Source: Synechococcus sp. M44_DOE_062 (GTDB taxonomy: Bacteria > Cyanobacteriota > Cyanobacteriia > Thermostichales > Thermostichaceae). Taken from it: a stretch of DNA of 44,739 bases. This document shows positions 9,201 to 11,780 of this stretch, in pieces (within the stretch, counting starts at the first letter, position 1; each line of letters starts with the position of its first letter). The DNA lies in the NCBI GenBank assembly GCA_015295985.1, contig DVDX01000032.1, positions 1 to 44,739 of the forward strand, written 5' to 3'. The notes under the pieces were generated by a model. The model did no database searches, was not told where the DNA came from, and worked only from the letters and a program-made list of their open reading frames with translations. Position numbers and translations under genes: made by a program.

Positions 9201-9515
9201 TCAATCCGCCACCGGGATCCCTTCTTGGGCCAGCCATGCCGTCAGCTCTTCCCAGTTGCGATAGATGGCCAGAACCCGTGAGCGCTCCGGGTGATAGGGG
9301 GCAGCCAAGCGCTCCAACTGCAGGAAGCGAGCCTGAGGGAGAATCACCGCCGCTTCGGGGTCGCTGGGGGTAGCTCGCCTCAAAGAGCTGCTGTAGCCCC
9401 GATAGATGAGAACCAAGTCCGTTTCTCCCTCGCTTTCCACCTCAACCCGGAGCACCTCTTGCGGGTGGTCTTGGCTATAGCGCTCCAGGGCCAAGGGCCA
9501 GGGCAGGGCCCTCAT
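9201..9515 (-). CDS. Conserved cyanobacterial hypothetical protein
   Basis: A soluble 104-residue protein with alternating strand-like hydrophobics (LRVEVESEGETDLVLIYRGYSSSL) followed by a segment with PEAAVILPQARFLQLERLAAPYHPER. I recall similar short proteins in cyanobacteria and plastid lineages (possibly the DUF7734 group), but I cannot confirm this from sequence alone. Its start overlaps the stop of the upstream DUF3177 gene as ATGA (9512-9515), so the two are probably translated together. No catalytic motif is visible. Confidence 0.75.
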   Translation of the reverse strand: MRALPWPLALERYSQDHPQEVLRVEVESEGETDLVLIYRGYSSSLRRATPSDPEAAVILPQARFLQLERLAAPYHPERSRVLAIYRNWEELTAWLAQEGIPVAD

Positions 9516-10099
9516 GCTTCCAGTTCCCCCTTATCAGTTCCAGGCCGCAGCCGCCAGACGAAATAGACGCTGTAAAGCAAATAGGCCACCAGCCCCCAAG
9601 CCCCCACGCTTCCCAACAGCTCCAGGGGCACCTGGGGGTGGAAAATTTCCCGAAACTCCAGCGGCGGCCCAAACCAGGCCCGGCATTCCTCCGACAAAGA
9701 AGCGCGGAAAGCACAGGGCACAAAGGCCCCCGAAAAGAGGATCCCGGCTCCCATATAGCCGGTCAAGCTCCACCGCCAGAGCCGAAAGACCCGCGCCGCC
9801 CAGCTTCTCGACTGCTCGAGAGCAGCACTCCAATCCCGCCAAAACCAAAGACAAACCACGATCAACAGTCGTGCCATCGCCCCACTGAGAAAGCTAACGG
9901 GCAGGCCCCCCATCATCAGGTATACCGTCACCGCCAAGAGGCTCGATACCCGCCAATAAACGATTAAGAACTGAATCAAGGGCCGCAACCCCACCGCAAA
10001 AGCCCAAACCAGCAGCAGCAATGGCATCACCACAGTTAGCGCCACTGCCAAACGGTAGTCCAGCCAGATCGCATCCACTAGCCAACTCTGGGGAGTCAT
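9512..10099 (-). CDS. DUF3177-type multi-pass membrane protein
   Basis: A protein of about 195 residues with four or five hydrophobic segments (e.g. LAVALTVVMPLLLLVWAFAVGL, LLAVTVYLMMGGLPVSFL, GAGILFSGAFVPCAF, LGSVGAWGLVAYLLYSVYFVW). It resembles the cyanobacteria-restricted DUF3177 family, whose function is unknown to me. A TTG at 10150 is in frame, but the ATG at 10099 is preceded by GAGGGTGAGG at good spacing and gives the expected start MTPQSWLVDAIWLDYRLAV. A TATACT-like -10 element lies just upstream near 10130. It is coupled to the 104-residue gene by an ATGA overlap. Confidence 0.8.
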   Translation of the reverse strand: MTPQSWLVDAIWLDYRLAVALTVVMPLLLLVWAFAVGLRPLIQFLIVYWRVSSLLAVTVYLMMGGLPVSFLSGAMARLLIVVCLWFWRDWSAALEQSRSWAARVFRLWRWSLTGYMGAGILFSGAFVPCAFRASLSEECRAWFGPPLEFREIFHPQVPLELLGSVGAWGLVAYLLYSVYFVWRLRPGTDKGELEA

Positions 10100-10452
10100 C
10101 CTCACCCTCTGCCACCCCTGCCCCTTAGTATATAGAGCTGCGGGATCCAAAGTGGGATCACACAGAGTTGCGGAATATTAACGCCTTCCGGCTATCCCAA
10201 GCAAAACTTTACACCCAGGAGGCTTCAGAAAGTTTTCCGATTCTGCCACTGCCGATCCGCGAAAGTGGTAGATTCTTAGCTAGATCCTCAGAAGAGGAAG
10301 AGTATCCCTGTCGTTCGGAAGGCTAGCTGCCTGTCTGAGCGACGACCTGAGTTCCCTTCAGACCTTGACCCGGTTTAATCTCGTTAAGTATTGTTACTTA
10401 ATCGTGTTACCTTGGGTTAAGGTCAAACCTCGAGAGGCATGACCTCGAAACC
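10100..10452. other. Divergent intergenic region between DUF3177 gene and atp operon
   Basis: About 350 bases without a gene. It should hold promoters for the minus-strand DUF3177 gene (TATACT-like element near 10130 on the minus strand) and for the plus-strand atp operon. Its striking content is the self-complementary element at 10361-10424. I could not assign a convincing -35/-10 pair for the atp operon. Confidence 0.6.
10361..10424 (+). promoter_or_regulatory. 64-nt self-complementary leader element before atpI
   Basis: Outer arms GACCTTGACCC (10361-10371) and GGGTTAAGGTC (10414-10424) pair over 11 positions as RNA, with one G-U pair. Inner arms TTAAGTA (10384-10390) and TACTTAA (10395-10401) are a perfect 7-bp inverted repeat around TTGT. 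The two 12-base segments between the arms are equal in length and can form several further U-A and G-U pairs. The whole thing would fold as one long imperfect hairpin about 28 bases before the first atpI start. It lacks a T-tract, so it does not look like a simple terminator. Confidence 0.55.
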
Positions 10453-11028
10453 ATGGCCCGTTCTTCCAGACTCCTCTCTCACAGTGCTGCCCGCTGGAAG
10501 GCGACCCAGTGGAAGCCCAGACCACTGCCTCCCTTGGAGCATGCACCTCTTTCTCCGAAGCAGGAGGGAGGGACAAGGGATCCAGTCAGGTCGGAGTCAT
10601 CACCTGCCTTGGGGAAGCCTGATTTGCCAGGGAACGTGAAGAGTGGAGCCAAGCAGGCGGCAGTTGCTGGCGGCGGGAGCTACGAAGCGCTGCAGCTATG
10701 GCTGGCGCTGGTTACCTTGGGGGTGAGTCTGGCCATCGCCGTGGGGGTGGCCCTGGTTTACTCCCTGGGGGTAGCTGCCAACTACTTGCTCGGGGCAGTC
10801 GTCGGCGTGGTTTATCTGCGCATGCTGGGCCGCGGCGTAGCGGAGCTGGGCAAAAGCCGCAACCGTTTGGGGGTGACGCGCTTGGCTCTGTTTGTTGGGC
10901 TGATCATTTTAGCCACTCAGGTGAAGTCTTTGCAGATTTTGCCCATTTTTTTGGGGTTCATGACCTACAAGGTCACCCTGCTCATTCATCTTGTCCAGAC
11001 CTTAACCCGTTCATCTTCTTCTGTGTGA
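10453..11028 (+). CDS. atpI: ATP synthase subunit I (AtpI/Atp1)
   Basis: The 191-residue protein is the small membrane protein that begins cyanobacterial atp operons and is thought to assist c-ring assembly. The C-terminal ~120 residues contain four hydrophobic helices ([76 protein letters not shown]), matching the family. The N-terminal ~65 residues are Pro/Arg/Ser-rich and not typical. The true start may be downstream, for example the GTG near 10637, so the ATG at 10453 is only one possible start. Its stop overlaps the atpB start as TGATG. Confidence 0.85.
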
Positions 11029-11780
11029 TGCCCATGAACCTGTCCTTCTTCTCTACTCCTCTTTTGGCAGAACTCGAGGTTGGCCATCACCTCTACTGGC
11101 ACCTAGGCAAATTCACCGTTCACGGGCAGGTTTTGATCGCCAGTTGGATCGCCATTGCCCTAATCTTGACGGTGGTCATCTTGGGCACCCGTCAACTGCA
11201 GCGGGAGCCGGCTGGCCTGCAAAACTTTGTCGAGTATGCCCTGGAATTTGTGCAAAGCATTGCCCGTGCCCAGATTGGTGAGAAAAACTTCCGGCCCTGG
11301 GTACCCTATGTCGGCACCTTGTTCCTGTTTATCTTTGTCTCCAACTGGATGGGCAACCTCTTCCCGTGGAAGCTGATTCCTCTGCCGGAAGGGGAGCTGG
11401 CCTCTCCCACCAACGACATCAACACCACTGCCGGCTTGGCACTCCTCACCAGCATCATGTATTTCGTGGCTGGCATCAGCAAGCGGGGGCTGTCTTATTT
11501 CAAAAAGTACATCGAACCTACCCCGATTCTGCTGCCCATCAATGTTTTGGAAGATTTCACCAAGCCCCTTTCCCTGAGTTTCCGTCTATTCGGTAACATC
11601 CTGGCGGAAGAGCTGGTGATAGCGGTGCTGGTGCTGCTGGTGCCTCTGTTTATCCCGGTGCCGGTGATGGTTCTGTTTCTGTTTACGGGGGCAATTCAGG
11701 CTTTGATCTTCTCAACCCTCTCGGCAGCTTACATTGGAGAGGCACTGGAAGGTCATGGAGGAGGGGATCACCACGATTGA
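11028..11780 (+). CDS. atpB: ATP synthase F0 subunit a
   Basis: The 250-residue membrane subunit forms the proton half-channels against the c ring. The segment [14 protein letters not shown] carries the essential Arg and partner residues of subunit a, and the end region [17 protein letters not shown] is also typical. The ATG at 11028 overlaps the atpI stop by one base (TGATG). A second ATG at 11034 is possible. The reading frame is open further upstream, but that part overlaps atpI and has no family similarity. It is the second gene of the atp operon. Confidence 0.97.

Follow-up and report, generated by a model that had tools for sequence, protein, structure and literature searches.

An imperfect inverted repeat before the ATP synthase operon of a Synechococcus encloses a probable proximal promoter with a box conserved among cyanobacteria

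ATP synthase has a central place in photosynthetic energy balance, and little was found in the open literature on the promoter architecture of the main atp operon. What, then, is the long hairpin that stands just upstream of this operon in the window, that is, in the whole stretch of 44,739 nucleotides analysed here, which comes from Synechococcus sp. M44_DOE_062? A preliminary description had seen in it an RNA leader, a protein-binding operator or a small RNA. The genus concerned we take to be that of the hot-spring Synechococcus now called Thermostichus. The elements that frame the question are the following:

10361 to 10424, forward strand: imperfect inverted repeat (hairpin) of 64 bp, genus-specific, enclosing the probable proximal atp promoter; seen by sequence and folding, at the same position in six of six species
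10453 to 11028, forward strand: Atp1/UncI gene (match to CGL160_C) that opens the atp operon; its N-terminal extension is shared across the genus
11028 to 11780, forward strand: second gene, ATP synthase subunit a (PF00119), named atpI in cyanobacteria
10434 to 10446, forward strand: GAGG...CCTC inverted repeat that spans what is likely the ribosome-binding sequence of the first atp gene, kept in six of six species

The hairpin is real. Inspection of the sequence finds its anatomy as first described, with an outer stem of 11 pairs including one G-U (10361-10371 with 10414-10424), an inner stem TTAAGTA/TACTTAA (10384-10390 with 10395-10401), two equal segments of 12 bases between the stems (10372-10383 and 10402-10413), no T-tract, and 28 bases between its end and the ATG at 10453. 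That ATG had been assigned to atpI; the gene that it opens matches CGL160_C, an Atp1/UncI-like family, and atpI is the next one. The thermodynamic folding that had been suggested gives -27.5 kcal/mol for the RNA of the 64 bases, against -11.2 +/- 2.7 in dinucleotide shuffles (z -6.1), not one of 200 shuffles folding as well, and the predicted stability is still high at 60-70 C. Folded as single-strand DNA, the element is also significant (z -4.7). It is the strongest fold among the 209 sampled 64-base stretches of the window with a GC fraction of at most 0.45, and belongs to the top 1.5% by fold strength of all 64-mers sampled there. The genome holds one full copy, as do the other genomes of the genus, one each, which rules out a dispersed repeat or mobile element.

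The immediate neighbourhood deserves a few words. The GAGG...CCTC repeat could limit translation of the operon's first gene. The start of that gene is overlapped by a frame of 66 codons (10439-10639), out of frame with it, whose ATG at 10439 some of the relatives do not share. On the other side, the divergent upstream gene (9515-10099, reverse strand) codes for a DUF3177 protein and is followed by a gene for a DUF7734 protein; the DUF3177 gene and the atp operon possibly share a regulatory region.

Comparison of six species of the genus, the window and five more, finds the hairpin before the first atp gene, at the same position, in every one of them. Upstream of atp, two islands are conserved, at about 10201-10278 and 10383-10423. 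Within the second, an invariant core, TTAAGTATTGTTAC-N10-TACCTT, spans 10384-10413. The parts from there to the end of the hairpin are:

10384 to 10397, forward strand: conserved box TTAAGTATTGTTAC, 14 bases, at about -36 to -23 relative to the predicted start; identical in six of six species and found phylum-wide at atp loci
10405 to 10413, forward strand: extended -10 element TGT-TACCTT (TGA-TATGAT in most cyanobacteria), its hexamer exactly 10 bases past the box
10402 to 10424, forward strand: 3' arm of the repeat, within which the -10 element and predicted start both fall
10418 to 10422, forward strand: predicted transcription start region, about 10420, within the 3' arm, placed from the position of the -10 element and from a G/T-G conserved at equal offset in distant species

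Because an extended -10 element is combined there with a fixed upstream box, we regard this core as very probably the proximal promoter (P2) of the operon. The TG at 10405-10406 lies one base before the hexamer (10408-10413), as in extended -10 promoters of the sigma-70 type. In this arrangement the box would replace a good -35 hexamer, with a constant 10 bases between it and the extended -10 element, and transcription would start near A10420, a position deduced from that of the -10 element, leaving a short P2 leader of about 33 bases. Protein binding at the box is plausible: it most likely binds an activator overlapping the -35 position, and its direct TTA repeat, with a period of 10 bp, would suit a regulator of the OmpR family. 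It may also bind no regulator and just contact RNA polymerase. Two points sit uneasily with the promoter reading. The hexamer of the window itself, TACCTT, is a poor match to TATAAT (the five relatives, all different from the window, have TATNTT and distant species TATGAT), and a promoter does not explain why the genus keeps an inverted repeat around it, whereas distant species show no trend towards one.

The promoter reading finds support far beyond the genus. In many distant cyanobacteria the region before the first atp gene carries TTAAGTATTGTTAC-N10-TATGAT, with an extended -10 element cGTGATATGAT, usually as CGTGATATGAT. A position weight matrix trained on 20 distinct distant sites, with reverse-strand, shuffled and downstream sequences as controls, ranks 38 of 77 atp loci higher than any control; the score of the window is 22.2 and that of the best control 8.6, and many of the atp loci that remain below the controls retain a -10 element resembling CGTGATATGAT. 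When the exact composite pattern was looked for in 376 genomes from 155 genera, its spacer left free, it came up in 77 genomes and 51 genera, almost invariably in a single copy and almost invariably with one and the same spacing, while the reversed pattern gave 2 matches in the same scan. We inspected 30 of these sites: 29 directly precede the first atp gene and share its strand. With 3 mismatches, the window contains the composite element once, for 0.01 expected by chance. The TG is invariant in 52 distant sites, part of which were selected by a pattern containing TG, and the G/T-G at the offset of the predicted start is conserved in distant species. Four distant loci (L028, L038, L055 and L079) have a spacer of about 5 bases between box and -10 element instead of 10, about half a helical turn less. 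A search of open-access papers did not turn up the string AAGTATTGTTAC, and on that basis the box is only possibly new.

Could the box be a site already known? The obvious candidate is HLR1, the site of the redox regulator RpaB, which would overlap the promoter. HLR1 reads KTTACAWW-N2-KTTACAWW, and RpaB activates from sites at -66 to -45 and represses from sites at -38 to +23 (PMC13421787). The box fits HLR1 at 13 of 16 specified positions (3 mismatches), and the same review lists the F0F1 ATP synthase among the RpaB targets, namely those that RpaB activates from -66 to -45 (PMC13421787). This last position differs from that of the box, at about -36. Matches of that quality number 3 in the window where chance predicts 1.5, and two KTTACAWW repeats 2 bases apart are not present in the box. 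Furthermore, the phylum-wide consensus reads AAG in the first half in place of the ACA of HLR1, and C for A in the second repeat; these departures stand at conserved positions of the consensus and argue that the conserved box is not HLR1. We consider an RpaB site improbable here.

A strong stem-loop upstream of an operon also evokes an intrinsic terminator, an attenuator or a free small RNA, the last having been put forward in the preliminary description. The element lacks what such roles would call for: no run of T follows the hairpin as it would follow the G+C-rich stem of an intrinsic terminator, a search for a terminator-like site returned none, no Rfam family reached its gathering score over the entire window, and conservation follows the promoter box. 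The small RNA thus finds no support, and we hold this whole group of explanations to be highly improbable.

The part of the hairpin that a promoter leaves out is its other half:

10361 to 10382, forward strand: 5' arm, with few invariant positions; its complementarity to the 3' arm holds in each species of the genus (arm-only shuffling)

This arm lies between the two conserved islands, and about 20% of positions are invariant across 10360-10374. The inverted repeat nevertheless folds at z -4.8 to -8.1 across the six species. When the 5' arm alone is shuffled, the promoter half being kept fixed, z ranges from -3.1 to -5.2, and in no species do more than 5 of 500 shuffles fold as well. The two arms are paired in 90% of the alignment cells, as against 20-48% when one is slid along the other, and the former figure, which includes a column pair (15/50) that is never paired, rises without it. 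From the shuffling and this pairing it follows that the complementarity is real and has been maintained through divergence. Conservation across relatives had been proposed as a check, together with compensatory base changes; the first is found across the genus, and the second is thin, with one two-sided change, C-G to U-A, probably a single event, most other changes retaining a G-U pair. The covariation score is reached by 18 of 500 shuffles. Comparing counts of G-U and A-C mismatches was dropped as a means of telling RNA from DNA: T and G abound in the 3' arm, so that an excess of G-U over A-C is expected without selection and is not informative.

Beyond the genus the repeat fades. At the sister-genus locus (L012) it is not significant, 50 of 500 shuffles being as good, and in distant species the sequences flanking the composite element follow no trend (mean z -0.25 +/- 0.17). 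Three distant loci (L018, L051 and L057) look convincing by eye; the set as a whole has no trend, and the inverted repeat was rejected as a phylum-wide feature. The surrounding inverted repeat is a feature of the genus. This distribution would suit a repeat without function, generated by template switching, its complementarity kept by quasi-palindrome correction and selection acting on the promoter half only. Template switching can keep quasi-palindromes complementary. Two further observations go in this direction: the 5' arm tracks the promoter half instead of preserving a sequence of its own, and in JA-3-3Ab (which we take genome G001 to be) the register has shifted and pairing has been regained. 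Yet many imperfect and G-U pairs persist in place of perfect complementarity, and the repeat is kept in six of six species, despite a first atp protein that is only 70-89% identical among them. On balance we find a functionless repeat rather doubtful. Selection on an RNA structure and template switching fit these data alike.

Would the hairpin then act as RNA? The idea of a leader element fails for the proximal promoter, because the predicted P2 start leaves most of the element upstream. With a start near 10420, within the 3' arm, mRNA from P2 would carry just a few bases from the end of the hairpin; the 5' arm would be missing from it, and a role as RNA would be restricted to longer transcripts. 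It is possible that such transcripts exist, as a candidate for an upstream start is at hand:

10201 to 10278, forward strand: conserved upstream block with an extended -10-like TGG-TAGATT (10266-10274), candidate distal promoter P1, present in six of six species
10309 to 10344, forward strand: second stem-loop, between P1 and P2, its pairing partly kept in the genus

A sequence similar to that of the candidate P1, GTGGTA(A/G)A, is found in two other genera of the family. In the same block of the window, just upstream of the candidate promoter P1, an inverted repeat AAAACTTT...AAAGTTTT (10202-10238, about 20 bases apart) is present in all six species. Transcripts from P1 would carry the hairpin some 28 bases ahead of the start codon; there it might affect stability or processing or link the outputs of P1 and P2, a proposal compatible with the promoter reading. 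We entertain it tentatively. It draws on the conservation of the P1 block in all six species, on a 5' arm that stays complementary (z -3.1 to -5.2) while free of core-promoter constraint, on the one two-sided change among others that mostly preserve G-U, on the presence of the second stem-loop within the same leader, and on a stability predicted up to 70 C. Against it, P1 is a candidate, compensation amounts to a single event with a G-U excess expected from the composition of the 3' arm, and the ribosome-binding site stays outside the hairpin. Also, in genome G004, which we take to be JA-2-3B'a, a mobile element separates P1 from the hairpin, which is nonetheless the most significant of all there. 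This element, of roughly 276 bp (locus L150, about 251-526), has about 40 similar copies in G004 and many in G001. Of the leader RNA first proposed, there remain conservation in the genus and a possible role in transcripts from an upstream promoter; the core itself is better read as a promoter.

The repeat might also work as DNA, supercoiling extruding it as a cruciform that would hide the -10 element and turn P2 off. The significant DNA fold (z -4.7), the AT-rich centre and the placing of the -10 element in a stem would agree with this; internal mismatches disfavour extrusion and no test made here favours DNA over RNA. We know of no citable cruciform at an atp promoter, and find this mechanism very unlikely.

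Taken at its widest, the picture would be that of a control box dedicated phylum-wide to the ATP synthase operon, with a regulator yet to be assigned, enclosed in Thermostichus in a selected hairpin that couples RNA from the upstream promoter to the proximal one. As a whole this remains an unlikely, speculative construction. Its parts are useful by themselves: a fixed box with an extended -10 element, shared by distant cyanobacterial families, makes a precise target of 30 bases in the search for a regulator, and the hairpin, specific to one genus, offers a clear-cut case for learning whether such repeats are under selection or are by-products of mutation.

How does this locus compare with known systems? 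It is closest to the sigma-70 promoters with an extended -10 element (TGN-TATAAT type) and an activator box over the -35 position: here likewise TG stands one base before a TATGAT-like hexamer, the -35 element is weak or missing, and a box occupies about -36 to -23. Unlike these promoters in general, it ties an exact box, TTAAGTATTGTTAC, and a spacer of 10 bases to the atp operon phylum-wide. With HLR1/RpaB sites it shares two half sites containing TTA, 10 bp apart, near a promoter. The promoter of atpT (AtpTheta) in Synechocystis, which has an HLR1-like element, is likewise related to ATP synthase, but it serves a different gene, with its element at -45 to -60, and atpT is regulated mostly through mRNA stability (PMC9241938). 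Finally, as in the structured 5' leaders of cis-regulatory RNAs, a stable stem-loop stands near a start codon; unlike them, it lies mostly upstream of the predicted P2 start, away from the ribosome-binding site, and matches no Rfam family.
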